Shown: one piece after another, positions 18,776 to 37,737 of the stretch
Numbering within the stretch: the first letter of the stretch is position 1
Layout of the letters: every line of letters begins with the position of its first letter
Assembly: GCA_017303805.1 (NCBI GenBank)
Contig: JAFLBQ010000001.1
Span: forward strand, 496,001 to 560,000
From: Cytophagales bacterium
GTDB taxonomy: Bacteria; Bacteroidota; Bacteroidia; Cytophagales; Cyclobacteriaceae
DNA: 64,000 nt
Direction of reading: 5' to 3'
The notes under the pieces: model-generated
Told to the model about the DNA's origin: nothing
What the model saw: the letters and a program-made list of their open reading frames with translations, nothing else
The model's database searches: none
Program-made: the position numbers and the translations under genes

Positions 18776-18855
18776 CAAAAAAAATAAGAGTTAAGAAGCC
18801 TGAAATTAAATTATTGGCTACTAACTCTTATCGTAATGCTGTAAAAAAAACGAGG

Positions 18856-19950: not shown

Positions 19951-19962
19951 GCAAACGTTTGC
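19951..19962. promoter_or_regulatory. Candidate LacI-family operator
   Basis: GCAAACGTTTGC is a perfect 12-base palindrome with a central CG, the usual form of LacI/CcpA-type operators. It lies 46 bases upstream of the lacI start and 169 bases upstream of susC. Confidence 0.65.
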
Positions 19963-20130: not shown

Positions 20131-23124
20131 ATGAGTAAACTGTATCTGTTAGTACGCAGGTGCCTTACGGTAGCGCTGGTTATGGCAGCCTTTGCAGGCT
20201 ATGCCCAGCAATCTGTAACGGGCAAAGTAACAGCAGCCGATGACGGCTCGGGCATTCCCGGTGTGAATGTGCTGGAGAAAGGAACCAGCAATGGTACCGT
20301 TACGGATTCGGATGGAAATTTCAGAATTAACGTTGGTGCCAACGCTACACTGGTATTTTCATTTGTAGGCTACGCTACACAAGAAGTGGCGGTAGGAAGC
20401 CAAAGTTCGGTAAACGTTTCGTTACTATCGGATGTAACGGCTTTGAGCGAAGTTGTTGTGGTAGGGTATGGTACGCAAGACAAGAAAGAAATTACAAGCT
20501 CTGTTACGAGTATCAAATCTGAGGATTTTAACAAAGGTACCGTAAATGACCCTGTTCAATTGTTACAGGGAAAAGTAGCGGGCTTAAACATTACCCGCCC
20601 AGGTGGAGACCCTAATGCCGGCTTTAACATCAGACTGAGAGGTGTTGGTACAATTGGTGCCAATGCAGAACCCTTGGTTGTAATTGATGGTGTAATTGGC
20701 GGTTCCTTAAGTACAGTTGATCCCAATGATATCCTTTCGGTTGATGTTTTAAAGGATGGTTCAGCCGCAGCGATTTATGGAAGTCGGGGCGGAAGTGGTG
20801 TTATTCTGATTACCACTAAGTCCGGAAAGAAAGGAAGAGTAGACGTAAGCTATAATGGATCAGTAGCGGTTGAAAGTATTGCCAGAACCATCGATTTTAT
20901 GAGTGCCGATGAATATCGTCAGGTACAAGGTGCAGTAAATTTAGGATCGAGCACAAATTGGCTGGACGTAGTTACCAAAAAAGGGAGCGCTATGGTTCAC
21001 AACTTATCTCTTTCTGGCGGTAGTGAAAAAACAACTTACAGAGCATCTTTTAACGTTAGAGAGGCTTCAGGTATCGCAATCAATTCAGGATTTACCCAGC
21101 TAAACGGTCGTTTGAACCTTACCCAAAAGGCGCTAAAAGACAAGGCAACATTTACAATGAATGTTTCATCCACTACCAAAGATGCCGAGTATGGTTTTAC
21201 TGAATCTTTGCGATACGCAGTAATAGCGAATCCTACTATGCCAGTATATGACAATACAACTACAAGCCCCACTGCTGGTGGTAATTTTGGCGGCTATGCG
21301 CAGCGCGATATTTTTGATTTTTTCAATCCGCTGGCTATAGCTGAGCAAAACCAAAACGATGGCAAGGATACACGCTTACTAACGAGCTTGAGAGGTGACT
21401 ATGATTTCAGCGATGTAATTAATGGATTATCTGCAGCCGTATTTTATTCACAGCAGCGCGAATCGGATTTCAGGGGATATTATTACTCCAAGTTTTCAAA
21501 ATTCAGAGGAGCTGGAAGAAATGGATTAGCGGGCAGAAGAAACGACCAACGGTTTAATGAATTGTTTGAAACGACAGTTAACTACAACAAGAATATTAAT
21601 AATGCTAACCTTGCTTTACTTGGTGGATACTCTTATCAGTACTTCCTAAACGAAGGTTTTGGAATGGAAGGAGGCAACTTCCTTACAGATGCTTTTGGTT
21701 ATAATAACATGGGAGCAGCTCTGGATTTTGCAAATGGATTAGGAAATGTATTTAGCTACGCTAATTCCAACAAGTTGGTAGCTTTTTTCGGAAGAGCCAA
21801 TTTGAATGTTTCAGAAACTTACTTTGCATCGGTTAGCGCTCGATATGAGGGCTCATCACGGTTTGGAAAAAACAATAAGTGGGGTTTATTTCCCGCAGCT
21901 AGTGCTGGTGTTACCCTCAGTAATCTGGTTGATATTCCATCAGTTAACAGCCTGAAATTAAGAGCCAGCTACGGTGTAACTGGTAACCAGCCTGGTTCTT
22001 CGTATGAGTCACTTTCGAGAATAGGAAGGTTAGGAAACTTTTTCTACGAAGGAGTTTACGTTCCAAGTTATGGCCCAGTTTCAAATGCTAACCCGGATCT
22101 AAAGTGGGAAACAAAATCTGAAATAGATTTTGGAGTTGACTTCTCAATGTTGAATAACAAACTAACCGGTACCATTGATTACTATACCCGTACCACGAAA
22201 GACATGATTTTGCCGGTAAATGTGCCTGTTCCACCAAATTTGTATGGAACTACGTTAGTTAATATTGGTGAATTAAAGAATGACGGTTTTGAACTAGCAC
22301 TTAATTACAATCCGATGAAGGCTGGTCTTATCAAGTGGACTGTAGGCGGTAACTTTTCAACCTATAACACAAAGGTTGTTAGTTTGACCTCTGGCCCGCT
22401 AAGTTTTGGATCTGGGGGAGTACTTTATAGAGCCGGAATGGGAGCGCCAGGTCAAAATGACTTTAGACTGATAAGGGTTAAGGAAGGTCAACCCCTTGGT
22501 GAAATCTGGGGACCTGTGCAAGTAGGAGTAAACCCTGATGGAACTCCTAAGTTTAAGGACATTAATGGTGATGGTGGTAACTATTGCGATTGTGATGACG
22601 ACAAGACTGTACTTGGCAACGGGTTGCCTAATTTTACGGCAGGTTTAAATTTCACCGTATCATACAAGAACTTTGATTTAAGTACATTTTTTAGAGGAGC
22701 ATTTGGTCATGACTTGGTTAACAGTTACCGCGGTTTTTATGAAAACCGGGAATCAACCACAGTTGGTAACTATAACATAGTAAATACCAAATATTACGAT
22801 CCAAATATAACCAAGGCGGTGTTCAATAGTTCGCACGTTGAAAAGGCAAGTTTTGTTAAACTTGATAATATGCAAATCGGTTACAACGTACCGTTAAAAG
22901 GTGGTTCTACTTTTACCAACTTTAGGGTATATGTGGCTGGACAGAACCTATTTGTGATTACAGGCTACACAGGAATTGACCCCGAAGTTCGTTATACCGA
23001 CCGCATCGATGGTGATGGTGGTGGTAATCCAGGTGCTGTGGATGCGTTGTCTCCAGGTATTGAGAGGAGATCAACCTATTTCACCACCCGCACTTTCACC
23101 TTTGGTGTTAACATCGGATTTTAA
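20131..23124 (+). CDS. SusC/RagA family TonB-linked outer membrane receptor
   Basis: A 997-residue TonB-dependent transporter that would import a bound ligand together with its SusD partner. A signal peptide ends near AGYAQ (residue 25). A carboxypeptidase-regulatory-like domain follows (SVTGKVTAADDGSGIPGVNV to ~105). EVVVVGYGTQ at ~110 is the SusC-type motif before the plug, which includes FNIRLRGVGTIGANAEPLVVIDGV. The barrel runs to the terminal aromatic residue (GVNIGF). susD follows after 13 bases. The gene diverges from lacI and the GH31 operon, which hints at an alpha-glycan or glycoside ligand. No SusC-type promoter box was found in the gap; the palindromes there suggest LacI control. 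Confidence 0.93.
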   Translation: MSKLYLLVRRCLTVALVMAAFAGYAQQSVTGKVTAADDGSGIPGVNVLEKGTSNGTVTDSDGNFRINVGANATLVFSFVGYATQEVAVGSQSSVNVSLLSDVTALSEVVVVGYGTQDKKEITSSVTSIKSEDFNKGTVNDPVQLLQGKVAGLNITRPGGDPNAGFNIRLRGVGTIGANAEPLVVIDGVIGGSLSTVDPNDILSVDVLKDGSAAAIYGSRGGSGVILITTKSGKKGRVDVSYNGSVAVESIARTIDFMSADEYRQVQGAVNLGSSTNWLDVVTKKGSAMVHNLSLSGGSEKTTYRASFNVREASGIAINSGFTQLNGRLNLTQKALKDKATFTMNVSSTTKDAEYGFTESLRYAVIANPTMPVYDNTTTSPTAGGNFGGYAQRDIFDFFNPLAIAEQNQNDGKDTRLLTSLRGDYDFSDVINGLSAAVFYSQQRESDFRGYYYSKFSKFRGAGRNGLAGRRNDQRFNELFETTVNYNKNINNANLALLGGYSYQYFLNEGFGMEGGNFLTDAFGYNNMGAALDFANGLGNVFSYANSNKLVAFFGRANLNVSETYFASVSARYEGSSRFGKNNKWGLFPAASAGVTLSNLVDIPSVNSLKLRASYGVTGNQPGSSYESLSRIGRLGNFFYEGVYVPSYGPVSNANPDLKWETKSEIDFGVDFSMLNNKLTGTIDYYTRTTKDMILPVNVPVPPNLYGTTLVNIGELKNDGFELALNYNPMKAGLIKWTVGGNFSTYNTKVVSLTSGPLSFGSGGVLYRAGMGAPGQNDFRLIRVKEGQPLGEIWGPVQVGVNPDGTPKFKDINGDGGNYCDCDDDKTVLGNGLPNFTAGLNFTVSYKNFDLSTFFRGAFGHDLVNSYRGFYENRESTTVGNYNIVNTKYYDPNITKAVFNSSHVEKASFVKLDNMQIGYNVPLKGGSTFTNFRVYVAGQNLFVITGYTGIDPEVRYTDRIDGDGGGNPGAVDALSPGIERRSTYFTTRTFTFGVNIGF

Positions 23125-23137
23125 AATTTGATCCAAA

Positions 23138-24769
23138 ATGAAAATGAAACAAAATATTATTAAAAAGATAGCAGCTCTTAGTATCGCATTGACTTTTTTT
23201 AATCAATCCTGTACTAATCTGGATGAAGAGATTTACAGTGATGTTACAGCTGATAATTTTTTCAAAACCAATGAAGAATTTATATCGGCACTGGGGCAGG
23301 CGTACGCTTCTTTAGGCGGACTAGGAAATCACTCTAACCTTTGGTCTGTTCAGGAAATTTCTTCTGACGAGCTCGTTATTACCACTAAAGGTGGTGACTG
23401 GTACGATGGAGGTGTACTTATTCAGCTACACCAACATAATTGGACTATTGATAATGGCTTTTTCAATAATACCTGGCAATTTCTTTACGGTGGCATTAAT
23501 AACTGTAACAGATTGATATATCAATTTGGCCAATCAGATGCCCCACAGGCTACTGCGTTTATAAATGAATTGCGCGCCCTTCGAGCCTTATGGTATTATT
23601 GGTTACTAGATTCTTTTGGCAACGTACCGCTTGTGGTTGATTTTAAAGAAACCAGCCCTGTAGGGAATTCAACCCGGGCTCAGGTTTTTGCTTTTGTTGA
23701 AAGCGAATTAAATGCCGTGATTAACAATTTGCCCACAGATGTTTCTGCGGTAACCTACGGAAGAATGACTAAGTGGACTGCACATGCCATTAAATGCAAA
23801 CTGTATTTGAATGCAGAAGTTTATACTGGTACTGCAAAATGGACTGAGGCAGCAGCAGAAGCTCAAGCTATTATCTCAAGTGGTAAGTACAATTTGGAAT
23901 CTAGCTACAAAGATAACTTCTCGATTAATAATGCCGGATCAACAGAGAATATCTTTGTCTACCCATACGATAAGGTGTTTGCTGGTGGATTTAACTGGCC
24001 AATGATGACGCTACATTATGCCAGTCAGGGTGTATATAAGCTTACTGCACAACCTTGGAATGGATATTCTGTAGTTGAGGAATTTTATAACTCTTACATT
24101 GACCCAGCCCAAAACCCAGGGCCGCAAGGACCTGTGTGGAAGGGCTTGACGAGTGATTTAAATGGGGATGGAATATCTGACGACAATGGCACTGTGGACT
24201 CTAGATTGTCAAATTTTGTGGTCGGCCCGCAATTCAACCCCGATGGAACACGCGCTTCAGATCCTGGTTTTGAAGGACCGACTACTGCTGCACCAGACCC
24301 TGACGGAGCACCCCTGACCTTTACTCCACAGATAAACCAAATTTATCCGAATGGATGGAGACAGGGCGGTGCACGGATTGGTAAGTACCAGTACGAGGTA
24401 GGTGGAACAAATAATATGAGTAATGACTTTGTTGTATTTAGATATGCAGACATATTACTTTCACGTGCGGAAGCCCTTTGGAGACTGAATTCAGGAAGTG
24501 CAGAAGCTTTGACGCTGGTTAATCAAATCAGAACAAGAGCCGGTGTAACAGCTTATGGCTCGCTAACGGCAGATAATTTAGTTGCTGAAAGAGGCCGTGA
24601 AATGTTTGCAGAGATGACCCGCAGACAAGATTTAATTCGCTTCGATAAGTGGGGCAGTACTTGGTGGGAAAAACCTGTTAGTACTGCCACTTACAAATTA
24701 TTCCCGATTCCCAAGGCTCAGCGGGATGTGAATAGTTTACTTCAGCAAAACCCTGGTTATCCTAACTAA
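23138..24769 (+). CDS. RagB/SusD family surface glycan-binding lipoprotein
   Basis: A 543-residue SusD-like lipoprotein, the lid and ligand-binding partner of SusC. The signal peptide ends in FFNQSC (Cys near residue 25), giving a lipid anchor. The family blocks are present: LDEEIYSDVTADNFF at the N-terminus, ALRALWYYWLLDSFGNVPLV near 150-165, and the C-terminal VVFRYADILLSRAEALWRLN and ERGREMFAEMTRRQDLIRF. It lies 13 bases after susC. A strong hairpin terminator follows its stop. The ligand cannot be read from sequence. Confidence 0.93.
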   Translation: MKMKQNIIKKIAALSIALTFFNQSCTNLDEEIYSDVTADNFFKTNEEFISALGQAYASLGGLGNHSNLWSVQEISSDELVITTKGGDWYDGGVLIQLHQHNWTIDNGFFNNTWQFLYGGINNCNRLIYQFGQSDAPQATAFINELRALRALWYYWLLDSFGNVPLVVDFKETSPVGNSTRAQVFAFVESELNAVINNLPTDVSAVTYGRMTKWTAHAIKCKLYLNAEVYTGTAKWTEAAAEAQAIISSGKYNLESSYKDNFSINNAGSTENIFVYPYDKVFAGGFNWPMMTLHYASQGVYKLTAQPWNGYSVVEEFYNSYIDPAQNPGPQGPVWKGLTSDLNGDGISDDNGTVDSRLSNFVVGPQFNPDGTRASDPGFEGPTTAAPDPDGAPLTFTPQINQIYPNGWRQGGARIGKYQYEVGGTNNMSNDFVVFRYADILLSRAEALWRLNSGSAEALTLVNQIRTRAGVTAYGSLTADNLVAERGREMFAEMTRRQDLIRFDKWGSTWWEKPVSTATYKLFPIPKAQRDVNSLLQQNPGYPN

Positions 24770-24790
24770 TACGATTTAAAAGATTCCTGA

Positions 24791-24819
24791 AAGGCAAACA
24801 GTAATGTTTGCCTTTTTTT
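24791..24819 (+). terminator. Rho-independent terminator after susD
   Basis: AAGGCAAACA (24791-24800) and TGTTTGCCTT (24805-24814) are exact reverse complements around a GTAA loop, followed by a T run. It separates susCD from the FG-GAP genes and could limit read-through into them. Confidence 0.85.
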
Positions 24820-24839
24820 ATTCAGCTTTAATAAATTTG
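24807..24839 (+). promoter_or_regulatory. Candidate promoter for the first FG-GAP gene, overlapping the terminator
   Basis: TTTG at 24807-24810 and TAAATTTG at 24832-24839 fit the phylum consensus TTG-N(17-23)-TAnnTTTG with a 21-base spacer. The -33 part lies in the right arm of the susD terminator. A start a few bases after the -7 box would fall at or next to the ATG at 24847, giving an almost leaderless mRNA. Confidence 0.45.
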
Positions 24840-24846
24840 GCACTGA

Positions 24847-27800
24847 ATGTTCAGAGTATTCATTTTCGCCTTCATTTGTGCTGTCTTTTCGAAGTGTGCT
24901 GCCGATCAAAAAGGAAAAACACTCTTCCTACGTAAGAATTCTCTATCTACAATGATTAATTTTAGAAATGAGCTTATTTATTCGGAAGATGTTAATGCTT
25001 ATACTTTTAAGAATTTTTACAATGGTGGCGGAGTAGGGCTCGGAGATTTCAATTCAGATGGCTTATTGGATATTTTTTTAGCTGGAAACCAAGTCTCTAA
25101 CCGGTTATATATCAATCAGGGCAATTTTAAATTTAAGGATTTTACAGATGAGGCAGGACTCAGCTCGATTGGCTCATGGACCACGGGTGTGAGTATTGTT
25201 GATATAAATGGAGACAATTTGCCCGATATTTATCTCTGTAAGTCTGGCCCACCAAATACCCCGGGCCGAAAAAATCAATTATGGATCAATAAAGGTGGAC
25301 TTAGGTTTGAGGAGTCTGCAGAAATCTTCGGCCTTGACCACCTGGGATTGTCAACACATGCAGCTTTCTTTGATTTTGATTTGGATGGTGACCTTGATTG
25401 CTATTTATTAAATAATTCTATCCGTTCGATTGGGGCATACGACCTAAGGCCAAACCAGAGATTAGTACGAGACTCACTAGGTGGAAATAAGTTACTTCGG
25501 AATGACAAGGGTAAATTTATAGACGTTACGGCCGAGGTTGGTATCTTTAGTAGTGCAATAGGCTTTGGCCTAGGGGTAACAATTTGTGATATAAATATGG
25601 ATGGCTGGCCAGACATTTATGTTTCAAACGATTTTTTTGAACGCGATTATTTATACATTAATCAGGATGGGATTGGTTTTATTGAAAGCCTGGAAGACTA
25701 CATTCAGGAACATAGTATGGGATCTATGGGAGCGGATGTGGCTGACGTTAACAATGATTTGCTTCCTGATATTTTTGTAACAGAAATGCTTCCTCGCAGT
25801 GATGCCCGCTTGAAGACCAAAGCTCAATTTGAAAATTGGGAGAAACTGACCTCAGCACACAAAAATGGGTATGGAAAACAATTTGGAAGAAATGTATTAC
25901 AGAAGAATAATGGCAATGGCACATTTAGTGAAGTGGGGAGATATGCCGAAGTGGATGCCACAGATTGGAGTTGGGGAGCATTATTGTTCGACATGGACAA
26001 TGATGGGCTTAAAGATATTTTCGTAGCGAACGGAATTTATAAGGATTTACTTGATCAGGACTATGTGAATTTCATGGCAAATCCGGATCGGATTAGAAAA
26101 ATGATTTTAAGCAAGGGCAAGGTAATCAAACAGCTAATGGATTCGATTCCATCTGCCCCCATAGCAAATTTCGCTTTTCAAAATCTTGGCGATTTTCAGT
26201 TTTCAGACAATAGTCTAGCTTGGGGTTTTAATGAAGAAACATATTCTAACGGATCTGCATATGGAGATCTTGATAATGATGGTGATTTAGATCTGGTTAT
26301 TAATAATGTAAATATGACGGCTTCCGTTTTTGAGAACACTGCGAACACCGTTACCGGTAATAATTCATTTTCAATCGATTTAAAAATGGTTGGCAAAAAT
26401 TCGTCAGCGATTGGCGCAAAAGTATTTGTGAAAACTAATTCAATCTGGCAATATCAAGAGAATAATCCATTTAGAGGTTTTATGTCTACAGTGGATTCTA
26501 GGCTTCACTTTGGGGTTGGAAAATTGGAGTTAATCGATACTGTTATTATCGTTTGGCCCAATAGCAGTACTTCTCTCTTGACAAATTTGAAAGTAAACGT
26601 ACTGCATGAAGTGTCTTTTGAAAAAGCAACCCTTGATAGCTATGATTGGAAAAGGAATTTTACCCGCAAGGATTTCACGTATTTTGGTAAGCCTCAACCA
26701 AATTCAATAAACTTTACTCATGTTGAAAGCGAATTTAACGACTTTGATCAACACAGACTTAAGTTTATAATGAGCTCCAATGAAGGCCCCTGTTTGTGCA
26801 AAGGAGATATTAATGGTGATGGAAAGGATGACTTCTATATTGGAGGAGCAAAAGGAAAGTCGGGAAGTCTTTTTGTAACACAAGGAAATTCTTACACGCA
26901 GGTAAATCAAAACCAACTTGAGCAGGATCGAGAATCCGAAGATACCGGGTGTGTCTTTTTTGATGCAAACGGAGATGGTATGTTAGATTTGTATGTTTCG
27001 TCCGGAAGCCTTGAATATTCTACGAGTTCAGTTGCATTAGCCGATAGGTTGTATTTTAATTTCAATAAATTCTGGAAGAAATCGGAGCAGTTACTTCCGT
27101 CTAAATTGACTTTTGAAAGCACAAAGGCAGTAACTGCGGCTGATTTTGATCTGGATGGTGACATGGATCTATTTGTGGGTGTTCGATTGAATTTGTTGAG
27201 CTATGGGACACCTTGCTCAGGTTATTTATTGAAAAATGATGGTCATGGAAATTTCGAAAGTGTTTCTGAAACCATTGGGCCAGGCTTGACTGAGTTAGGT
27301 ATGATTACTGATGCCAGGTGGTCTGATTTGAATAATGATGGCCTACCGGATTTAATAGTTGTGGGAGAATGGATGCCTATTAAGTGTTTTATTAACATAA
27401 ACGGCCAATTATTGGATAGGACTAAAGAACTTGGCTTACAGAATTCGAACGGGTGGTATCAGAGTGTAGAGATTGTTGATATAAACAGTGATGGCTTACA
27501 GGATATTGTTGTAGGCAATCACGGTCTCAACTCGCAATTTAAGGCAAGCTTTCTGAGCCCTTTAACACTGTATGTTAGTGATTTTGATCGTAACGGATTT
27601 ACTGATCCAATATTGACGCGTAGGGTGGAAGGAAAAGAATTGCCTATGGTTTTGCGAAACGAGCTATTAGCTCAAATACCCGGATTAAGAAAGAAGTATG
27701 TTCGATTTAAAGATTATGCAAACCAAACAGTTCAAGATTTATTCGAAAAGTCGCAGTTGGATCAAGCATTACGCCTTACCGCTACAGAATTGAAGTCGGC

Positions 27801-28158
27801 AGTCTGGATCAATACGGGTTCCGGTTTCGAGCAGTTTCCATTACCATACGAAGCGCAGCTATTTCCTATATACGCAATCTTGCCGATTGATGCTGACAGT
27901 GATGGAAATTTGGATTTACTGGTTGGAGGAAATCAAAGCAAGGCAAAACCCCAAATGGGTATTTACAGTGCAGGGTACGGTGCATTTCTGAAAGGTAGGG
28001 GCAACGGAAATTTTGATTTTGTGCCTCCAAGAATTTCTGGAATAGAGATTAAGGGGGATATTAGGAGTATAAAATGCCTGAATAATAGTAGTGACCCTTT
28101 AATACTAATCGCCAGGAGTAACGATAGTTTAGTTTTTTTATCTAAGTTAAAACCATGA
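24847..28158 (+). CDS. FG-GAP/VCBS repeat lipoprotein with internal ASPIC/UnbV domain (copy 1)
   Basis: A 1,103-residue predicted surface lipoprotein; the signal peptide MFRVFIFAFICAVFSKC ends at C17. Residues ~55-490 hold FG-GAP/VCBS beta-propeller repeats, each with an acidic DxNxDG-type calcium loop (GDFNSDGLLDIF, VDINGDNLPDIY, GDLDNDGDLDLVINNV). An ASPIC/UnbV module follows at ~505-580 (SAIGAKVFVK, STVDSRLHFGVG, IIVWPNSS). A second propeller set runs from ~650 to 1,060 (GDINGDGKDDFYIGGAKG, ADFDLDGDMDLFVGV). In the better known CRTAC1-type layout the UnbV module is near the C-terminus; here it is in the middle. It is the first of three tandem paralogues; the stop overlaps the next gene by four bases. 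The molecular role is unknown; ligand binding or scaffolding at the cell surface is inference. Confidence 0.85.
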   Translation: MFRVFIFAFICAVFSKCAADQKGKTLFLRKNSLSTMINFRNELIYSEDVNAYTFKNFYNGGGVGLGDFNSDGLLDIFLAGNQVSNRLYINQGNFKFKDFTDEAGLSSIGSWTTGVSIVDINGDNLPDIYLCKSGPPNTPGRKNQLWINKGGLRFEESAEIFGLDHLGLSTHAAFFDFDLDGDLDCYLLNNSIRSIGAYDLRPNQRLVRDSLGGNKLLRNDKGKFIDVTAEVGIFSSAIGFGLGVTICDINMDGWPDIYVSNDFFERDYLYINQDGIGFIESLEDYIQEHSMGSMGADVADVNNDLLPDIFVTEMLPRSDARLKTKAQFENWEKLTSAHKNGYGKQFGRNVLQKNNGNGTFSEVGRYAEVDATDWSWGALLFDMDNDGLKDIFVANGIYKDLLDQDYVNFMANPDRIRKMILSKGKVIKQLMDSIPSAPIANFAFQNLGDFQFSDNSLAWGFNEETYSNGSAYGDLDNDGDLDLVINNVNMTASVFENTANTVTGNNSFSIDLKMVGKNSSAIGAKVFVKTNSIWQYQENNPFRGFMSTVDSRLHFGVGKLELIDTVIIVWPNSSTSLLTNLKVNVLHEVSFEKATLDSYDWKRNFTRKDFTYFGKPQPNSINFTHVESEFNDFDQHRLKFIMSSNEGPCLCKGDINGDGKDDFYIGGAKGKSGSLFVTQGNSYTQVNQNQLEQDRESEDTGCVFFDANGDGMLDLYVSSGSLEYSTSSVALADRLYFNFNKFWKKSEQLLPSKLTFESTKAVTAADFDLDGDMDLFVGVRLNLLSYGTPCSGYLLKNDGHGNFESVSETIGPGLTELGMITDARWSDLNNDGLPDLIVVGEWMPIKCFININGQLLDRTKELGLQNSNGWYQSVEIVDINSDGLQDIVVGNHGLNSQFKASFLSPLTLYVSDFDRNGFTDPILTRRVEGKELPMVLRNELLAQIPGLRKKYVRFKDYANQTVQDLFEKSQLDQALRLTATELKSAVWINTGSGFEQFPLPYEAQLFPIYAILPIDADSDGNLDLLVGGNQSKAKPQMGIYSAGYGAFLKGRGNGNFDFVPPRISGIEIKGDIRSIKCLNNSSDPLILIARSNDSLVFLSKLKP

Positions 28159-28730
28159 AAGGATTTTTGTTTTTTGTAACGCTCTGTGTTATATCACTTG
28201 GTTTGGTCAATTGCAACAGACTTATTGATTCAAAAAGAATAAGTTCTAAGTATGACAGCCTTGTGCTGGATGTTCGATTTGGCATGGAGAGAAAGGAATT
28301 TTTTGATTATTGCTGGGAGATGAACCGTCAGAAGATATTAACTCATGGGCCCACCAATCAAAATGTGGAATACGAATTTCAAGGTGTTAAAGATAAAATC
28401 ATCATGAGATTTTATCCTTCCTTTTATGAAGAGCGTGTTTATGAATTGCCGGTTACTTACACGTATCAGGCATGGGCACCATGGAATAAGGAGTATGATT
28501 CAGAGCACCTCCTAGTTGAAATATTAGATTTATACAAGCGAGTGTACGGCAATGATTTTAAAAGTATTGTTCACCCAACAATGGGCGAGGTGTTTTATAA
28601 ATTCGATAAATACAGGAGAATAAATATTTTTTTACGGGATGAGCAATTTGTGCAGGTTGTATTCTCAGACATGAGAGTTTTGAAACAACTTAAAAAGGAG
28701 TACGAGTCAGAAGTAATAGATTTGGAATAA
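28155..28730 (+). CDS. Small orphan lipoprotein in the FG-GAP operon
   Basis: A 191-residue protein with a signal peptide ending GLVNC (Cys near residue 21), hence a probable lipoprotein. The mature part has mixed helix and strand character, is rich in Tyr, Phe and charged residues, and contains FYPSFYEERVYELPVTYTYQAWAP. I recognise no domain. It overlaps FG-GAP copy 1 by four bases and ends ten bases before copy 2, so it is embedded in the same transcript and is likely to work with these proteins. The composition is AT-rich like its neighbours. Confidence 0.75.
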   Translation: MKGFLFFVTLCVISLGLVNCNRLIDSKRISSKYDSLVLDVRFGMERKEFFDYCWEMNRQKILTHGPTNQNVEYEFQGVKDKIIMRFYPSFYEERVYELPVTYTYQAWAPWNKEYDSEHLLVEILDLYKRVYGNDFKSIVHPTMGEVFYKFDKYRRINIFLRDEQFVQVVFSDMRVLKQLKKEYESEVIDLE

Positions 28731-28740
28731 GAGACTTTTA

Positions 28741-31700
28741 ATGCGATTTTTCTATTTGGTGTTGATTGGAGCATTATGCCTAACCTGCTCACGGAGAACA
28801 ACCGATGATAAGTTGTTCAGATTAGTTTCGCCTGGCACTTCGGGCGTTAACTTTTCAAATAACCTACATTTTGATCAGGCTTTTAATATTTACACCTACC
28901 GTAATTTTTATAATGGTGGTGGTGTGGCATTAGGTGACATTAATAACGATGGTTTGATTGATATTTTTTTTACGGCTAATCAGGAGAGGAATAGACTATA
29001 TTTAAATAAAGGTAATTTCAAATTTGAAGATATTTCGGAGTTGGCTGGTATTGGTGGAAGTAAAGCATGGTCAACCGGAGTTAGTATGGTTGATATTAAT
29101 GGAGATGGGTGGTTGGATATTTACGTTTGTAACTCGGGTGATGTGAAAGGTGATAACAAAGAGAATGAACTATTTATTAATAATGGGAATTTAACATTTA
29201 CAGAGCGTGCGAGCCACTATGGAATTGCTGATTCTGGATTTTCCACACACGCGGTATTTTTTGATTACGATAACGACTCAGATCTGGATTTATACATCTT
29301 AAATAATTCCTATCAGGCAATTGGATCATTTAATTTGATGAAGAATGTTCGCAATGAACGCGACTTACTCGGGGGAGATAAGCTATATAGGAATGATAAT
29401 GGCAAGTTTAAAGATGTTAGTAAAGAAGCAGGCATATTTGGAAGTGTTATTGGATTTGGATTAGGCGTTACAGTGGGAGATATTAATGGTGATGGATGGT
29501 TAGATATATATGTTTCGAATGATTTTTTTGAACGTGATTATCTTTACATTAACTTAAAGGATGGTACGTTTAAAGAGTGCCTTACTAGTCAGATTGAATC
29601 CATTAGCGGGGCTTCTATGGGAGCTGATTTAGCTGACATCAACAACGATGGCTTGCCTGATATATTTGTTACAGAGATGCTGCCAAATGACTATGGAAGA
29701 TTAAAATCAGTTACCACATTTGAGAATTGGGATCGTTACCAATATAGTGTGCAGAATGGATATCATCATCAGTTTACAAGAAACATGTTGCAACTCAATA
29801 ACGGTAATAATTCTTTCTCTGAAATAGGCAGGTTAGCCAATGTGGCAGCAACTGATTGGAGTTGGGGCGCTTTGATTTTCGATATGGACAATGATGGATA
29901 CAAAGATATTTTTGTTTCTAATGGAATTTACCAGGATCTGACTGATCAAGATTACCTTCAATATGTCTCAAGTGAGGAGGTAGTTCGGTCGGTTGTTTCT
30001 AATAAGAATGTGAATTATAAGAAACTGGTAGAATTAATACCTTCCAATCCCATACCTAACTTCAGTTTTAAAAACTTAAAGAACCTGCAATTCGAGAATG
30101 TTGCAGGTGCATGGGGTTTAGATGCATTAGGATTTTCGAATGGTGCCGCCTATGGCGATCTTGATAACGATGGGGATATGGATTTGGTAATTAACAATGT
30201 TAATGCAACAGCGTTAGTTTACGAAAATCAGGCAACAAGATTATATCCAGACAATAAGTATTTAAAGTTTGTTTTGGAAGGTCCGCTGTATAATAATTTT
30301 GCAATTGGTACTGCCATTCGGGTATATGCAGCCGGTGAACTTTTTTATATCGAAAATGTACCTAACAGAGGCTTCCAATCTTCGGTAGATGGAAGACTTA
30401 ACTTAGGATTAGGCGCATTGAATAAAGTTGACTCAATTGTAGTATCCTGGCCTAAGGGAAAGCAAACCAAACTTTATGAAATCGAAACTAACAAGACCCT
30501 GGTACTAAATTTCAGCGATGCCCGGGAGTATAAGGCTGTAGCGCATCAGAAAAATCAAATGTTTCAACCCATACCTTCTTTTATAGAAGCCGAGCACATT
30601 GAAAGTCAATTTGTGGATTTTGATAGAGATAAACTGATTTTTCATATGTTAAGTACACCAGGCCCTAAGCTTACTGTGGGTGATGTAAATGGAGACTATC
30701 TGGATGACATTTATTTAGGTGGCGCAAAGGGGCAAACCGGAACCTTGTTACTTCAGAACAAAAATAAAGGGTTCACCAGATTAACGGTGGCTGCGTTTGA
30801 GGGTGATAAAATGTCTGAAGATGTAGCGTGCATTTTTTTTGATGCCGATGGTGATTCAGATTTGGATTTGTACGTGGCCAGTGGTAGTAACGAATTCTCC
30901 ACCAGCTCAATTGATCTTGCAGATAGGCTCTACTTTAATGATGGAAGAGGGAACTTTACGAAGTCCACGCAAATTTTGCCGAAAGGAGATTTCGAGAACA
31001 CATCGGTTGTAGTGGCGGCAGATTTTGATAAGGATGGAGATTTGGATTTATTTGTTGGAATCAGAAGCCATCCCTTTTTTTATGGTAAACCAACAAATGG
31101 CTATATCCTTCAGAATGATGGAAACGGATTTTTTTCTGATATAACTGATCATGTTGCAGGTGGATTAAAATCTATTGGTATGATTACGGATGCAGTCTGG
31201 GCTGATATAAATGGAGATAGTTGGGTTGATTTAATAGTGGTCGGTGAATATATGCCTGTAAAAGTATTTCTTAATCAAGGCGGTACATTTACTGACGATA
31301 CTGAAAGGTATGGCTTGGAAAACTTTAAAGGCTGGTGGAGTAAAGTTATTGCGGCCGATGTGGACAATGATGGAGATTTAGATATTGTGCTGGGTAATCA
31401 TGGATTAAATTCAAGATTTAAATCTAACGGCAGTTATCCAATTGAATTATTTGTTAACGATTTTGATGGTAATGGATCAATAGAACAAATCCTTTGCATG
31501 TACTTTAATGATGAAAGTTATCCTTTAGTGCTTCGCCATGATTTAGTCTCTCAAATTCCTTCTCTTAAAAAGAAGTACCTCAGGTACCAGGATTTCAAAA
31601 CCCAGAACATGCTTCAAATATTCGGGGCCAAAGGAATAGAGTCTTCCATTCAGCTAATGGCTACTGAATTGAGGAGCGGTTTGCTGCTTAACCATGGGGG

Positions 31701-32031
31701 TAGTTTCGAGTTTAGGCCTTTACCCATTGAGGCGCAATTTTCTCCAATTTTTGCAATAGTGTCCAATGATTTTGATAATGATGGGTTTGTGGATTTAATT
31801 ATTGGCGGAAATCTATACAACGTGAAACCAGAGGCGGGTCGTTATGATGCCAGCGAGGGTCTGTTTTTGAGAGGAAAGGGCGATGGAACTTTTGCGCCCG
31901 TCTTACCTAGAATCTCCGGGTTAAAATTGGTAGGTGAAGTTCGGGATTTGAAAATTCTTCACATTCAATCCAAAGTCATTCTTCTGGCGGCACGCAACAA
32001 TGATTCATTAATGAGTTGGCTTGTACAATGA
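28741..32031 (+). CDS. FG-GAP/VCBS repeat lipoprotein with internal ASPIC/UnbV domain (copy 2)
   Basis: A 1,096-residue paralogue of the gene at 24847 with the same order: lipoprotein signal (LCLTC, C16), first propeller, internal ASPIC/UnbV module (FAIGTAIRVYAAG, SSVDGRLNLGLG, IVVSWPKG), second propeller. Phrases such as YRNFYNGGGVALGDINNDGLIDIFF and ATDWSWGALIFDMDNDGYKDIFVSNGIY are nearly identical to copy 1. It is closer to copy 1 than to copy 3 by eye, including FERDYLYIN and the FVTEMLP segment. The stop overlaps the start of copy 3 (ATGA). The function is unknown. Confidence 0.85.
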   Translation: MRFFYLVLIGALCLTCSRRTTDDKLFRLVSPGTSGVNFSNNLHFDQAFNIYTYRNFYNGGGVALGDINNDGLIDIFFTANQERNRLYLNKGNFKFEDISELAGIGGSKAWSTGVSMVDINGDGWLDIYVCNSGDVKGDNKENELFINNGNLTFTERASHYGIADSGFSTHAVFFDYDNDSDLDLYILNNSYQAIGSFNLMKNVRNERDLLGGDKLYRNDNGKFKDVSKEAGIFGSVIGFGLGVTVGDINGDGWLDIYVSNDFFERDYLYINLKDGTFKECLTSQIESISGASMGADLADINNDGLPDIFVTEMLPNDYGRLKSVTTFENWDRYQYSVQNGYHHQFTRNMLQLNNGNNSFSEIGRLANVAATDWSWGALIFDMDNDGYKDIFVSNGIYQDLTDQDYLQYVSSEEVVRSVVSNKNVNYKKLVELIPSNPIPNFSFKNLKNLQFENVAGAWGLDALGFSNGAAYGDLDNDGDMDLVINNVNATALVYENQATRLYPDNKYLKFVLEGPLYNNFAIGTAIRVYAAGELFYIENVPNRGFQSSVDGRLNLGLGALNKVDSIVVSWPKGKQTKLYEIETNKTLVLNFSDAREYKAVAHQKNQMFQPIPSFIEAEHIESQFVDFDRDKLIFHMLSTPGPKLTVGDVNGDYLDDIYLGGAKGQTGTLLLQNKNKGFTRLTVAAFEGDKMSEDVACIFFDADGDSDLDLYVASGSNEFSTSSIDLADRLYFNDGRGNFTKSTQILPKGDFENTSVVVAADFDKDGDLDLFVGIRSHPFFYGKPTNGYILQNDGNGFFSDITDHVAGGLKSIGMITDAVWADINGDSWVDLIVVGEYMPVKVFLNQGGTFTDDTERYGLENFKGWWSKVIAADVDNDGDLDIVLGNHGLNSRFKSNGSYPIELFVNDFDGNGSIEQILCMYFNDESYPLVLRHDLVSQIPSLKKKYLRYQDFKTQNMLQIFGAKGIESSIQLMATELRSGLLLNHGGSFEFRPLPIEAQFSPIFAIVSNDFDNDGFVDLIIGGNLYNVKPEAGRYDASEGLFLRGKGDGTFAPVLPRISGLKLVGEVRDLKILHIQSKVILLAARNNDSLMSWLVQ

Positions 32032-35000
32032 TTCAATTTCGGTGTTTATTGGGTTTAGTAATCATCGGCATGTTGGTAGGTGGATGCAAGCAGGCGAATA
32101 CAAATTTTAAAGTTGTAAGCCCGGCACATTCAAATGTTCATTTTTCAAATGAATTAGCAGAGGACGCTGACTTTAACATTATACAATATTTGTATTTCTA
32201 TAATGGTGGTGGAGTGGCCATAGGCGATATAAACAATGACTCATTACCTGATATCTATTTTTCTTCTAACCAAAAATCCAATAGGCTCTATTTAAATAAG
32301 GGAAACTTTAAATTTCTGGACATTACGGAGCAGGCTGGTGTTGCTGGTTTTGGCAATTGGAAGAGTGGAGTAACTATGGCAGATGTGAATGGTGACGGGT
32401 TGTTAGATATTTTTTCATGTGGTGTAGGGGGGTATAAAAAATTTACAGGAGCCAACAGGCTATATATTAATAATGGTGATTTAACATTTAGCGATCAAAC
32501 CGAAAAGTATGGCCTGGCTTTTCAAGGATTTTCTTCGCAGGCAATTTTTTTTGACTACGACAATGATGGAGATTTGGATATGTACCTGGTTAACCATTCA
32601 GTTCGGTCAGTAAGGAACTACGGTGATGTAAGTTTACGTTTTCAAAGCGATTATAAATCTGGAGATAAACTATATCGCAATGAATTGTATCCAGCCGGTT
32701 TAGAGAAGTTTACGGAAGTTACGGCCACTTCCGGAATTTATGATAGTCATGTTGGATATGGGTTAGCGGTAGCTGTTGCCGATTTTAATGATGATAATTT
32801 CCTGGATATTTATGTGAGCAATGATTTTCAGGAAAACGATTATTTGTACATGAATCAGAGAGATGGAACTTTTAAAGAGAAGTCTGGTACCAGCCTTAAG
32901 CATAGCAGTCGGTTTTCCATGGGTAGCGATGTTGGTGACATTAATAACGATGGTTATTTAGATATCATCACAATGGATATGCTGCCAAAGGATGAGTATA
33001 TTCAGAAAACAACTGCTGGTGAAGATCCTATGGATATAGTTCTTTACAAGCTCAAAGCTGGTTTTGGTTATCAGGTGTCCAGAAATTGTTTACAACTAAA
33101 TCAAGGTGTTGATGCCAAGGGTGAAGTTTATTTTTCTGATATCGCCCCGTTAGCCGGGGTTGAGGCAACAGATTGGAGTTGGTCGGTTCTGATGGAAGAT
33201 TTAGACAATGACGGCCTCAAAGATGTATTCATTACAAATGGAATTCCAAGAAGACCTAACGATCTGGACTATATAAATTATATTTTGAATGATTCTGTAC
33301 AAAGGTTTGCGGGCGATAGCGAGTTGATCAAATATATGCCAAAGGGACCTGTCTCGAATGTATTGTTGCGGAATCTTGGTAATCTGAAGTTTGGAGACTT
33401 TTCGGTTGGTGACTTGAACTGGCCCAAAGGCTTCTCGCATGGAGCTGCCATGGCCGATCTCGATGGTGATGGAAGACTTGATATTGTAATTAACAATCTT
33501 AATGAAGTAGCGACCATTATCCGGAACACGAATCAATCGGATAAAAGTTGGGTTCAAATCGCACTGCAAGGCGGTAAAGGAAATACCTTTGGTTTAGGTG
33601 CAAAGATTACCGTATTCACTGATTCCCTAAAAGTAACAAGCCGGGTAATGGCAACTCGTGGCTGGCAATCCAGCTCTGATAATGTTTTGCATTTTGGTTT
33701 AGGAGCCAGCACTCGAATAGACTCAATACAGATAGTATGGCCGGAGGGAGAAGTTCAGCTCATCAAGGGGGCTTCCTTAAATAAAAAGTTAACTCTTAAG
33801 AAGAGCAACACCTCTACTTTGGTATATGCACTTAAAACTACCTACTTAGTTACAGACACTACCTTGGCACAAATTCACCATATTGAGAATGAATATATTC
33901 CATTTCGACAAGAGTTTTTGTTGACACAATCGTTGGCAGCAGAAGGACCGGCAATGGCATTTGCAGATATTGACAATGACAGGTTGACTGATTTCTTTTT
34001 AGGTGGCGCCCGGGGAAACCGAAGCAAGCTGATATTACAAAAGTCAAAGGGCGTACGGACAGTAGATCTTGATGCAGATTTGATTCCGACAGATGCGGAT
34101 GTTGTTGGAGCGCAGTTCTTTGATGCTAATGGTGATGGTTTGGAAGATTTAATTATTGTGCGCGGAGGCCAAGAAGTTGACAATTTGCAATCAATGATGC
34201 CATCACTTTATTTAAATACAGGCAACAGTTCTTTTAAGAAAAGCGGATTGCTGCCAGATATTCTGGTAAATGCTTCTTGTGTAAAAGCTTTTGATTTTGA
34301 TGGCGATGGTGATATGGATTTGTTTATCGGGGGTGGTGTTGTAGGAGGAAGTTTTGGGCTAAAACCTAAAAGTTATCTGCTTAAAAACAACGGAAAGGAG
34401 GGGTTTGAGATTGTTAATCATTTGCTGCCGACAGCGCAATTAGGGATGGTAAAAGATGTGATTTGGCAGGATGTAAATGGAGATTCAATGGTAGATTTAG
34501 TAATAGTAGGATTATGGATGCCTATTACAATATTGCAACAACAAAGTGATGGAACCTTCAAAAATGTAACCGAGAAACTGGGTTTTTCAGCAACTTCTGG
34601 TTGGTGGAATACCATATTTTCTTACGATGTTGATAGCGATGGAGACATGGACTGGGTTGTAGGAAATTTAGGGTTAAACTCTCGGTTACGGGCTAGCAAG
34701 TCGCAACCTCTTGAATTATGGGCTGCTGATCTTGACGAAAACGGGAGCAATGATCCGATTATGACCTACTTTAATGGAGGCCGGTATCCTTTTATTACCC
34801 GAGATCAACTTACTCGACAAGTTCCTTCATTAAAGAGGAAATTTCCTCGATATTCAGATTTTGGCAAGGCGAGCATTGAGCAGCTACTACCTAAAAATCA
34901 GATTGCCAATGGTGCATTACTTCGAGTGGAAATGCTGGAGTCAATATGGGTTGAAAATTCACCAAGTGGATATAAAATTCATAACTTACCACGTGAGGCA

Positions 35001-35330
35001 CAAATGTTCCCAATCTTGGATTTCGAGTTAGCAGATGTGGATTCAGATGGAAAGCCAGAACTTTTAGCTGTTGGAAATCTCACAGACTTTCAGTCCGAAA
35101 TTGGCAGGCAGGATGCTGGGTATGGGTTGGTTATGAAACTGAATAAGAGTGCCTCTTTTGAAGTTATTCCCAATAGAGTAACCGGATTTTGGGTGAATGG
35201 GGCTGCCAGAAAAGTAAAACTTTTCAACAATTCGAAAAATGGAATAACAATACTTGTTGGTAGAAATAATGAATCAGCTTTGACATTTAGAACCAAATCA
35301 AAAAACCAAAATACTTCAGCCTCCAGGTAA
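32028..35330 (+). CDS. FG-GAP/VCBS repeat lipoprotein with internal ASPIC/UnbV domain (copy 3)
   Basis: A 1,100-residue third paralogue. I start at ATG 32028, which overlaps the stop of copy 2 (ATGA) and puts the lipoprotein signal directly at the N-terminus (MIQFRCLLGLVIIGMLVGGC); an in-frame start at 32016 would add four residues. The layout is propeller, internal ASPIC/UnbV (FGLGAKITVFTDS, SSSDNVLHFGLG, IQIVWPEG), propeller. It is the most divergent copy (YFYNGGGVAIGDINNDSLPDIYF, TMDMLPKDEYIQK, PRRPNDLDYINYIL). A haloperoxidase-like lipoprotein gene follows after 29 bases. The function is unknown; a paralogue specialised for a different partner or ligand is inference. Confidence 0.85.
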   Translation: MIQFRCLLGLVIIGMLVGGCKQANTNFKVVSPAHSNVHFSNELAEDADFNIIQYLYFYNGGGVAIGDINNDSLPDIYFSSNQKSNRLYLNKGNFKFLDITEQAGVAGFGNWKSGVTMADVNGDGLLDIFSCGVGGYKKFTGANRLYINNGDLTFSDQTEKYGLAFQGFSSQAIFFDYDNDGDLDMYLVNHSVRSVRNYGDVSLRFQSDYKSGDKLYRNELYPAGLEKFTEVTATSGIYDSHVGYGLAVAVADFNDDNFLDIYVSNDFQENDYLYMNQRDGTFKEKSGTSLKHSSRFSMGSDVGDINNDGYLDIITMDMLPKDEYIQKTTAGEDPMDIVLYKLKAGFGYQVSRNCLQLNQGVDAKGEVYFSDIAPLAGVEATDWSWSVLMEDLDNDGLKDVFITNGIPRRPNDLDYINYILNDSVQRFAGDSELIKYMPKGPVSNVLLRNLGNLKFGDFSVGDLNWPKGFSHGAAMADLDGDGRLDIVINNLNEVATIIRNTNQSDKSWVQIALQGGKGNTFGLGAKITVFTDSLKVTSRVMATRGWQSSSDNVLHFGLGASTRIDSIQIVWPEGEVQLIKGASLNKKLTLKKSNTSTLVYALKTTYLVTDTTLAQIHHIENEYIPFRQEFLLTQSLAAEGPAMAFADIDNDRLTDFFLGGARGNRSKLILQKSKGVRTVDLDADLIPTDADVVGAQFFDANGDGLEDLIIVRGGQEVDNLQSMMPSLYLNTGNSSFKKSGLLPDILVNASCVKAFDFDGDGDMDLFIGGGVVGGSFGLKPKSYLLKNNGKEGFEIVNHLLPTAQLGMVKDVIWQDVNGDSMVDLVIVGLWMPITILQQQSDGTFKNVTEKLGFSATSGWWNTIFSYDVDSDGDMDWVVGNLGLNSRLRASKSQPLELWAADLDENGSNDPIMTYFNGGRYPFITRDQLTRQVPSLKRKFPRYSDFGKASIEQLLPKNQIANGALLRVEMLESIWVENSPSGYKIHNLPREAQMFPILDFELADVDSDGKPELLAVGNLTDFQSEIGRQDAGYGLVMKLNKSASFEVIPNRVTGFWVNGAARKVKLFNNSKNGITILVGRNNESALTFRTKSKNQNTSASR

Positions 35331-35359
35331 TAAACTTTTCAATAACTTCTAATATCAGT

Positions 35360-36685
35360 ATGAAACGATTGTTATTTTTTCTCGGCTTACTTTTTATAGC
35401 ATGCAATGGAGATAACAAAGACTACAAAGCCTTAGTTGAACAACCGGAGTTTTTACACCGCACCCTCAAGCAAGTTACTGATGTAATTGTGCATGATATT
35501 TTCTCACCACCTGTAGCAAGTCGTATCTATGCGTATTGTACCATTGCCGCGTATGAGGCGATAATTCCTCAGGACAGTAGCTACGTTTCGTTGGCCGGCC
35601 AGCTACATGGGTTAACAGAAACACCTAAACCGGAGCCCGGAAAGGAATATTGTTTTCCTATTTCCTCTATGCAGGCTATGTTTAAGGTAGGCCGCACCCT
35701 TATTTTTTCAGAAGATAAGATGGATGTCTTCTACCGTCAACTGATGAGCGAAGTTGAAACCCTGAAGGTTCGTGGCGATGTTCTGAAGCGATCAATCGAC
35801 TACGGTAATCAAGTGGCAGATCACATTCTTGAATGGTCTGGCAAAGATAATTACAAGCAAAGCCGCTCATTCCCCAAGTATTCGATCTCCAATGACCCAG
35901 CCACTTGGAAACCAACCCCACCCGCCTACATGGATGCTGTAGAACCTCACTGGAATAAAATCAGAACGTTTGTAATTGATTCAGCCGGCCAGTTTAAACC
36001 TAACCCGCCCACGCCCTTTTCAACCAATAAGACAAGCCAGTTTTATAAAGAAGCTTTGGCTGTTTACGAAGCTGGAAAAATGCAGACTCCAGAGCAACGC
36101 GAAATAGCTTTCTTCTGGGATTGCAATCCGTTTATGATGAATGTGAAAGGACACGTAATGTTTGCCACCAAAAAGATTTCGCCTGGCGGGCACTGGATTA
36201 ACATTACGGCAACGGCTTGCCGTGGATCGAACGCATCGGTTATAGAATCGGCAGAGGCCTACGTACGAGTCTCCATTGCATTGGCCGATGCCTTTATCAG
36301 TTGCTGGGATGAAAAGTACCGGAGCCTGTTGATACGTCCTGAAACCTATATAAATCAATACATTGATGAAGACTGGGTGCCCACGCTTCAAACACCTCCA
36401 TTTCCTGAGTACACCAGTGGGCATAGTGTAATCTCAGCAGCGGCAGCAGATATTCTTACGGATGTTTTTGGGGAATCATTTGCTTTTACTGATAGTACTG
36501 AAAATGAATTTGGTCTTCCGTCAAGAAATTTTAAGTCGTTTAAGGATGCAGCCGAAGAGGCAGCAGTAAGCAGGTTCTATGGAGGTATTCATTATACGCC
36601 CGCATGTGAAAATGGAACACACGAAGGCCATCTTGTAGGTGAATACGTAAAGATCAATTTGAAAACAAAAAGCAAAAAGATCTAA
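35360..36685 (+). CDS. Vanadium-haloperoxidase-type PAP2 family lipoprotein
   Basis: A 441-residue protein of the PAP2/vanadium-dependent haloperoxidase superfamily. MKRLLFFLGLLFIAC is a lipoprotein signal (C15). The oxyanion-binding triad motifs are complete: K319-x6-R326-P327, S353-G354-H355 in YTSGHS, and S404-R405-x5-H411 in SRFYGGIH. These residues bind phosphate in acid phosphatases and vanadate in haloperoxidases, so either activity is possible. The length and the long helical N-terminal half fit the bacterial haloperoxidase branch. It ends the susCD/FG-GAP gene run, 29 bases after copy 3, and its stop overlaps the convergent DUF4249 gene by four bases. An outer-surface or periplasmic location is inferred from the lipid anchor. 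Confidence 0.85.
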   Translation: MKRLLFFLGLLFIACNGDNKDYKALVEQPEFLHRTLKQVTDVIVHDIFSPPVASRIYAYCTIAAYEAIIPQDSSYVSLAGQLHGLTETPKPEPGKEYCFPISSMQAMFKVGRTLIFSEDKMDVFYRQLMSEVETLKVRGDVLKRSIDYGNQVADHILEWSGKDNYKQSRSFPKYSISNDPATWKPTPPAYMDAVEPHWNKIRTFVIDSAGQFKPNPPTPFSTNKTSQFYKEALAVYEAGKMQTPEQREIAFFWDCNPFMMNVKGHVMFATKKISPGGHWINITATACRGSNASVIESAEAYVRVSIALADAFISCWDEKYRSLLIRPETYINQYIDEDWVPTLQTPPFPEYTSGHSVISAAAADILTDVFGESFAFTDSTENEFGLPSRNFKSFKDAAEEAAVSRFYGGIHYTPACENGTHEGHLVGEYVKINLKTKSKKI

Positions 36686-37737
36686 AACCAATCCGGGCGT
36701 TGAAGTGTACTGTTTTTCATGGTCAGGCAATTAAGGCAATATTGTGAATATTGCTCCGTGCGGTTAGGATTATAGGTACAATTTTCATTTGAAAAGAATA
36801 TAGGGAATGGAAAATCATACGGATATAAAACGAAGCGTTCAGTGGTCTCATTCACACTTTGTACGTATCCCCAAATAGTTTCTTCGGGAGAAGCTAGATT
36901 TTGAATGTTGCCTCTAATCTGGGCAGGAGGTGTATCGAATATTGAACCAGTCTGGTTGGCGAGCGTATTGACTCTGCTCCAGTATTGGAAAGACTCTTCT
37001 GAAAGAAGGGTTTGGTATGCTGTGAAATAGTGTTTTTCCAGAAACGTCCAATCTATATTTCTTTTACAGATTAAGATATTTTCAATCTTAGAGCCAGTTA
37101 TATTTCTCGTGGATACCTGCGCAATTCTATTTGGTTCAGCTTTTTGATCAATAAAGCAAGGTGGTGGGATTGATCCAAATGGATCTGGAAAATCGGTAGG
37201 AGAAACCATAAAGGTTTCATTCACAATGTAGCCGATTCGTATATTCTTAAGGTTATTTAATGAAGTAGATGCATATATTGAAATAAATTTTTGCCTGATG
37301 GTGGCCCCATCCGCGTTTACTGCTTGATCTTCACCAAATGTGTAGGAAAGTTCCAAAGGCAAATTTTCGATTGGAATCATTTCCGGTTGTGAGCGGTACA
37401 CAGCTCCGGTTGAAAGTATGATTTCAACGTGGTACAGACTTCCGGGTACGCCTTGGAAACCAGGTAACCTGTATATACCACTATCATATTCTATCATTGC
37501 AATTTGATTTTCCAAATGGTCGATCAATAAGACGGTTGAACCCCTTACAGCATAAGGTAATCGGTCGGGTGCGGTACGCCCGATTTGAATCAGCGTGCGC
37601 CCCTCTACTGTACTTATTTGGCCGGAAATAACTAAGGTACCTAAATTGCCTTCAACGGGAATCTCCACAGGGCTAATGCAGTAAAAAGGCAACTGTGCAA
37701 GAATAAAAAAGAGGCAATTCCTGAAACTGATTCTCAT
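36682..37737 (-). CDS. DUF4249 family protein
   Basis: A 351-residue exported protein with a signal-peptide-like start (FLFFILAQLPFYC, possible lipid Cys at residue 20). It has the early EGNLGTLVISGQIS and VLLIDHLENQ strands and the middle block SPTDFPDPFGSIPPPCFIDQ that I associate with DUF4249. These proteins usually sit next to a TonB-dependent receptor, as here: the receptor gene overlaps its start by four bases. By analogy with SusD it may be a surface partner of that receptor. Six cysteines in the mature part (PPCF, LICK, NCTYN, YCLNC) could form disulfides or bind metal. The function is otherwise unknown. Confidence 0.8.
   Translation of the reverse strand: MRISFRNCLFFILAQLPFYCISPVEIPVEGNLGTLVISGQISTVEGRTLIQIGRTAPDRLPYAVRGSTVLLIDHLENQIAMIEYDSGIYRLPGFQGVPGSLYHVEIILSTGAVYRSQPEMIPIENLPLELSYTFGEDQAVNADGATIRQKFISIYASTSLNNLKNIRIGYIVNETFMVSPTDFPDPFGSIPPPCFIDQKAEPNRIAQVSTRNITGSKIENILICKRNIDWTFLEKHYFTAYQTLLSEESFQYWSRVNTLANQTGSIFDTPPAQIRGNIQNLASPEETIWGYVQSVNETTERFVLYPYDFPFPIFFSNENCTYNPNRTEQYSQYCLNCLTMKNSTLQRPDWF

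Follow-up and report, generated by a model that had tools for sequence, protein, structure and literature searches.

A conserved SusCD operon with FG-GAP/UnbV lipoproteins and a vanadium-haloperoxidase-family enzyme in a Cytophagales bacterium, a proposed uptake system for small alpha-glucosides

SusC and SusD together form a TonB-driven pedal-bin importer, a mechanism established for this family, and elsewhere proteins of the SusE/SusF type serve as surface partners of the pair. Cartilage acidic protein 1 (CRTAC1) is built of FG-GAP plus UnbV/ASPIC, and the phosphatases of the PAP2 superfamily use the same vanadate/phosphate site as the vanadium haloperoxidases. Relatives of these families are brought together in a seven-gene operon (20131–36685) of a Cytophagales bacterium (assembly GCA_017303805.1, contig JAFLBQ010000001.1), lying in a window of 64,000 nucleotides (positions 496,001 to 560,000 of the contig) from a genome of 4.29 Mb. 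The operon is a variant of the SusCD utilisation locus that is real and conserved, and no description of a combination of SusCD, FG-GAP/UnbV proteins and haloperoxidase was found in the open-access literature searched, subscription papers and preprints being outside this scope. With moderate confidence, we interpret it as a SusCD system under LacI control that takes up small alpha-glucosides and includes a haloperoxidase-family enzyme as well as FG-GAP/UnbV proteins in the role of surface partners.

All seven open reading frames are present on the plus strand in the order that an earlier, sequence-only reading had given. The SusC/RagA TonB-dependent importer (20131–23124; TIGR04056, 717 bits against a cut-off of 368) is adjacent to the SusD/RagB lipoprotein (23138–24769; PF07980 and PF14322), the pairing that marks a SusCD utilisation locus, and is followed by FG-GAP/UnbV lipoprotein 1 (FG1, 1103 amino acids; 24847–28158), a small lipoprotein of 191 amino acids (LIP; 28155–28730), FG-GAP/UnbV lipoprotein 2 (FG2, 1096 amino acids; 28741–32031), FG-GAP/UnbV lipoprotein 3 (FG3; 32028–35330) and a lipoprotein of the vanadium haloperoxidase family, of the Zobellia 4cit type by phmmer against PDB (35360–36685). 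The four close junctions of at most 13 bases that had been claimed are also borne out: the gap between SusC and SusD is 13, FG1 overlaps LIP by 4, LIP is separated from FG2 by 10, and FG2 overlaps FG3 by 4 (ATGA) when the ATG at 32028 is taken as the start of FG3; the TTG at 32016 would instead give a protein of 1104 amino acids. The remaining gaps are 77 (SusD to FG1) and 29 (FG3 to the enzyme), and the seven genes may be co-transcribed. A candidate lipobox cysteine was found in six of the seven products, in agreement with the lipoprotein signals reported before; in alignments it is kept in 32/32 LIP, 34/40 enzyme and 42/45 FG-GAP sequences, and the lipobox of FG1 is atypical in that Lys precedes Cys. 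The products are predicted surface proteins. In one draft genome (L150), the operon genes appear split into many short frames.

The neighbourhood of the enzyme gene recurs well outside this genome. Of 118 genomes sampled from the family, 89 encode the enzyme (E ≤ 1e-10), and 86 of these were analysed for the best enzyme copy and up to about 17 kb upstream; G023 (E 7e-65), G066 (1e-17) and G068 (3e-15) were left out for their weakest matches. Of the 78 loci that extend far enough, 64 have a same-strand FG-GAP/UnbV gene among the three genes preceding the enzyme, in 42 of them as its immediate upstream neighbour; SusC plus FG precede the enzyme in 55 of 70 such loci, and the exact order SusC-SusD-FG-LIP-FG-FG-enzyme is found in 19/86. 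Divergent second copies of the enzyme (42–49% identity) behave in the same way, with FG immediately upstream in 13 of the 14 examined out of 27, the weaker listed matches being unused. In a second set of named loci, formed by the best 80 of at least 596 enzyme matches, FG is upstream of the enzyme in 30 of the 54 with enough sequence, and 12 of the 24 without FG are titled Saprospiraceae, Lewinella, Lewinellaceae or Phaeodactylibacter; this set is not independent of the family sample because it partly repeats the same genomes. The best named relative of the enzyme is a 78% match in a Cyclobacteriaceae metagenome-assembled genome. Since the order recurs in many genomes, the arrangement is beyond chance, and a tree of 145 enzymes shows at least 22 switches in the presence of neighbouring FG genes, losses included, so that the pairing of FG and enzyme is not one frozen event. 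The suggestion that the genes form one conserved system therefore survives the comparison with related genomes.

FG1, FG2 and FG3 each contain FG-GAP_3 repeats (PF13517) and a UnbV_ASPIC domain (PF07593) over the Pfam cut-off, carry 11–12 DxDxDG-like motifs and match the CRTAC1 structure (PDB 9etn; E 3e-13 for FG2). They are probably calcium-binding beta-propellers, which would bind substrate or serve as a scaffold for the importer. Each of the three is recognisable by its place in the operon: across 27 operons, the best match was to the protein at the same position in 1810 of 2106 comparisons, one third being expected if position were irrelevant. FG-GAP/UnbV lipoproteins are common SusCD partners in these genomes. 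In the genome of the window, all five UnbV proteins belong to SusCD loci, three of them in this operon; the fourth is a 1116-amino-acid FG-GAP/UnbV lipoprotein in a starch-type SusCD locus with SusE between and two GH13 genes (L031, C12:197000-212000), and the fifth adjoins a Gfo/Idh-family gene. The same genome has 13 matches to PF14322, 12 of them over the cut-off. Among 20 UnbV loci of relatives, hand-picked from the matches listed and away from listed enzyme matches (19 kb each), UnbV genes directly follow a labelled SusC-SusD pair in 10 and SusC is found within the 19 kb in 18; the SusCD pair is on the opposite strand in some (L256, L262 and L265), and one (L260) turned out to carry the enzyme gene. 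Copy number varies among relatives, with 40 UnbV proteins among the matches listed for G016 vs five in the genome of the window. Repeated FG/LIP units of equal score occur in L086 and on G025:C78 (LIP at 125252 and 129334), which may reflect either a tandem duplication that happened recently or an artefact of the assembly.

LIP has no match in Pfam or NCBIfam at E ≤ 0.01, and an alpha+beta domain is predicted for it. It had been called an orphan, a description that does not hold, as the family sample has relatives in 56 of its 116 genomes and a phylum sample in 12 of 198. For 36 of 66 LIP matches, the enzyme gene lies 3.7–17 kb downstream on the same strand.

The assignment of the last gene to a haloperoxidase-type enzyme is upheld by a full-length match, in which residues 7–435 align to the Zobellia-type structure 4cit with an E value of 3.8e-147 (phmmer vs PDB); 4cit and 4usz are vanadium-dependent haloperoxidases. 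A profile of 40 relatives detects nine distinct PDB sequences at E ≤ 0.001, all of the haloperoxidase family, including NapH1 and NapH3, which we take to be members of it. The site residues K319, R326, S353, G354, H355, R405 and H411 are invariant in 40/40 aligned relatives, and 184 of the 186 relatives with at least 400 amino acids carry the vanadate/phosphate-site motif Kx6RP ... SGH ... SRx5H. The site residues alone cannot tell the reaction, because the superfamily phosphatases share the site; it is the full-length match that favours a haloperoxidase. We consider oxidation of halide with H2O2 a little likelier than the removal of phosphate from a sugar phosphate or glycerol phosphate. It has been reported that 4usz is the vanadium iodoperoxidase of Zobellia (PMC5064120, an Arenibacter genome paper). 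Haloperoxidase-family genes also occur as tandem pairs directly behind FG-GAP/UnbV genes in L087, L137, L141, L143, L145, L147 and L148.

The substrate is suggested by the regulator and by the genes on both sides of the operon. On the divergent side lies a LacI-family regulator (18856–19905, minus strand; Pfam LacI and Peripla_BP), followed on the same strand by a GH31 alpha-glucosidase (16376–18778; PF01055, matching PDB alpha-glucosidases), an MFS transporter (15025–16362) and an esterase (13838–15028; PF00756). In the gap between LacI and SusC there is a perfect 12-bp palindrome, GCAAACGTTTGC (19951–19962), whose first base is 180 nucleotides before the SusC start and which is a candidate LacI-family operator; it occurs exactly at two sites of the genome, here and at another place seemingly within a coding region. 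Allowing up to two mismatches, 25 of the 49 SusC genes in enzyme loci are preceded by the palindrome, whereas random 510-bp pieces drawn from these loci contain it in about 2.3% of cases. As a candidate LacI-type operator, the palindrome speaks for control by a sugar. In L157, and possibly in L158 and L159, loci with FG and enzyme are preceded by a FecR-type gene (checked with Pfam in L157), which suggests that sigma/anti-sigma control may replace LacI there.

Downstream of the operon, convergent to it on the minus strand, are a DUF4249 protein and a TonB-dependent receptor-like protein (36682–40172), and similar pairs recur beside operon relatives in L168, L169, L068 and L070. A plus-strand series of catabolic genes then begins with an MFS transporter, probably a GPH-type sugar symporter (40274–41599; MFS_1, with TIGR01301 far below its cut-off), an MIP channel that is of the glycerol facilitator type by context (41655–42359; TIGR00861, 201 bits against 171), the glycerol kinase GlpK (42365–43858; TIGR01311, 731 bits against 590) and a member of the glycerol-3-phosphate dehydrogenase/oxidase family, GlpD (43862–45487; DAO and DAO_C, NCBIfam models below cut-off). 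A DUF3179 gene (45484–46674) stands within this glycerol series and is conserved downstream of the enzyme in five of 59 named loci. It is followed by a GH13 alpha-glucosidase resembling oligo-1,6-glucosidase (46667–48316), a ROK sugar kinase (48331–49239), a PfkB-family kinase (49351–50319), a beta-phosphoglucomutase (50333–50977; TIGR01990, 238 bits against 189) and a maltose-phosphorylase-like GH65 protein (51029–53314; PRK13807, 1159 bits against 838; PDB 1h54, E 5e-230). The sequence-only reading had proposed that the enzyme takes the place of the glycosidases usual for SusCD loci. The operon itself holds no glycoside hydrolase gene, but GH31, GH13 and GH65 genes flank it in the same locus and GH37 or GH65 adjoins the enzyme in part of the relatives, so the proposal has to be abandoned.

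In 116 related genomes there are 72 matches to GH37 trehalase, and 16 of them lie 132–680 bp behind the enzyme gene, a link that is not one event, since the tree of enzymes (141 scored rows) shows at least 12 changes in the presence of a trehalase neighbour, losses included. GH65 is found between the FG genes and the enzyme in 9/100 loci, and the GH65 protein preceding the enzyme in L070 matches PDB 7fe3 (E 1.7e-241), which is presumably the kojibiose hydrolase of a Flavobacterium. Among the 59 named loci with at least 5 kb downstream, labelled by their best phmmer match, a symporter, glycerol or glycoside hydrolase gene follows the enzyme in 20 (GlpK in 10, GH13 in nine, GlpD in eight and GH37 in eight), and in L166, L167 and L171 such catabolic genes come directly after it. 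The common denominator of these contexts would be small alpha-glucosides together with glycerol, namely trehalose, sugars of the kojibiose/maltose type and glucosylglycerol. Glucosylglycerol is a probable substrate because genes for a glycerol channel, kinase and dehydrogenase belong to the locus, none of the genes here being specific for it.

On this basis, the seven genes would form the outer-membrane half of a utilisation locus for alpha-glucosides (maltose/kojibiose-like, trehalose and probably glucosylglycerol). SusC and SusD would import the substrate as a TonB-driven pedal bin, the three FG-GAP/UnbV lipoproteins would take a SusE/SusF-like role as binding or scaffold partners in a complex at the surface, and LIP may be a further dedicated partner of the importer. 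Judging from the families, the substrate would be cleaved by alpha-glucosidases (GH31 here, GH65 and GH37 in some relatives) and its use completed inside the cell by GPH/SSF symporters, GH13, GH65 phosphorylase with beta-phosphoglucomutase, the ROK kinase and GlpK/GlpD; the lipid-anchored enzyme of the Zobellia-type vanadium iodoperoxidase family would act at the same membrane. Several observations weigh against this proposal. Catabolic genes are missing downstream of the enzyme in 39/59 named loci, 56 of the 72 trehalase matches are not beside the enzyme, a search of about 17 kb upstream shows GH31 in just four of 86 loci, and in the window the two convergent genes part the catabolic genes from the operon. 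The enzyme is without FG within three genes upstream in 14/78 and 24/54 loci, and it stands beside a trehalase without FG in eight of 23 trehalase rows. In other classes (L271, L274 and L275), SusCD-FG-LIP-FG exists with no enzyme directly behind, so the enzyme is an optional part. Finally, halide or phosphate chemistry offers no obvious step in the uptake of alpha-glucosides.

The last point is where the alternatives enter. If the enzyme were a surface phosphatase of the PAP2 superfamily, it would free phosphorylated glucosides or glycerol phosphate (trehalose phosphate, glucosylglycerol phosphate or pieces of teichoic acid) before uptake, and the glycerol genes and alpha-glucosidases nearby, the site common to PAP2 phosphatases and a Pfam PAP2 match, though below the gathering threshold (22.8 bits against 27.2), fit such a role. 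The full-length match is nevertheless to a haloperoxidase, the 40-relative profile finds only haloperoxidase-family chains in PDB, and no phosphodiesterase is present among the Pfam-scanned window proteins; we regard the phosphatase as unlikely, though it is the alternative to be taken most seriously. Somewhat less likely still is a surface haloperoxidase fuelled by glucose, in which glycosidases release glucose, a membrane sugar oxidase turns it into H2O2, and iodide or bromide is oxidised to hypohalous acid for iodine uptake, defence or attack, SusCD and FG being part of the machine. Its nearest solved relative is the Zobellia vanadium haloperoxidase, glucose-releasing enzymes adjoin the haloperoxidase gene in part of the loci, and the numerous DxDxDG-like motifs of the FG proteins are counted in its favour. 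A suggestive parallel is Arenibacter C-21, in which iodine uptake requires glucose, oxygen and calcium and for which glucose oxidase plus haloperoxidase has been proposed (PMC5064120); the reported rise of the Zobellia vanadium iodoperoxidase vIPO3 on Ascophyllum vs alginate (PMC9296495) is counted on the same side. Against it, no recurring H2O2-producing oxidase was seen beside the enzyme, a GMC oxidoreductase being present in L094 alone and, as a query, labelling no other open reading frame of 180 loci (other oxidase types were not searched), and the operator and catabolic genes point to feeding.

A bolder variant, which we consider improbable, joins SusCD, the three FG-GAP/UnbV proteins, LIP and the vanadium haloperoxidase into one complex, widespread in Bacteroidota, that would couple the recovery of compatible solutes such as trehalose and glucosylglycerol to surface chemistry with hypohalous acid, for example by damaging neighbours or by oxidising cell envelopes to release the solutes that are imported. 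Slightly more doubtful again is the notion that the enzyme is a passenger, adjacent through shared regulation and not through shared function. Enzyme and FG genes are each found without the other, as this would have it, but the same-strand FG gene upstream in 64/78 loci, its repetition in 13/14 divergent second copies and the 22 or more FG-context changes on the tree, though these include losses, speak against such a passenger. The alpha-glucoside uptake system remains the preferred interpretation. Under it, an FG-GAP/UnbV lipoprotein is often the third partner of a SusCD importer, vanadium haloperoxidases of Bacteroidota, which were characterised in species associated with seaweed, turn up elsewhere as parts of sugar-uptake operons, and two poorly understood families gain a concrete setting. 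A substrate prediction is gained as well (alpha-glucosides of the trehalose or glucosylglycerol type), and the question is raised of what role a haloperoxidase or phosphatase would have beside a sugar importer.

Compared with known systems, the enzyme shares full-length homology with the vanadium iodoperoxidase of Zobellia galactanivorans (4cit, 4usz), and the residues around the vanadate site are identical in the alignment. The FG proteins resemble CRTAC1 in sequence and differ from it in their length of about 1100 amino acids, in the repeats that flank the UnbV domain on either side, in the lipobox and in the context of a bacterial importer. The GH65 of PDB 7fe3 is like that of L070, whereas the window's own GH65 is maltose-phosphorylase-like and the operon has none of the 7fe3 type. 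With SusCD utilisation loci in general, the locus shares SusC, SusD, a LacI-type regulator, glycoside hydrolases and a symporter; unlike the usual ones, it keeps its glycoside hydrolases outside the seven-gene operon, places FG-GAP/UnbV proteins in the accessory position, and adds a haloperoxidase-family enzyme and glycerol catabolic genes.

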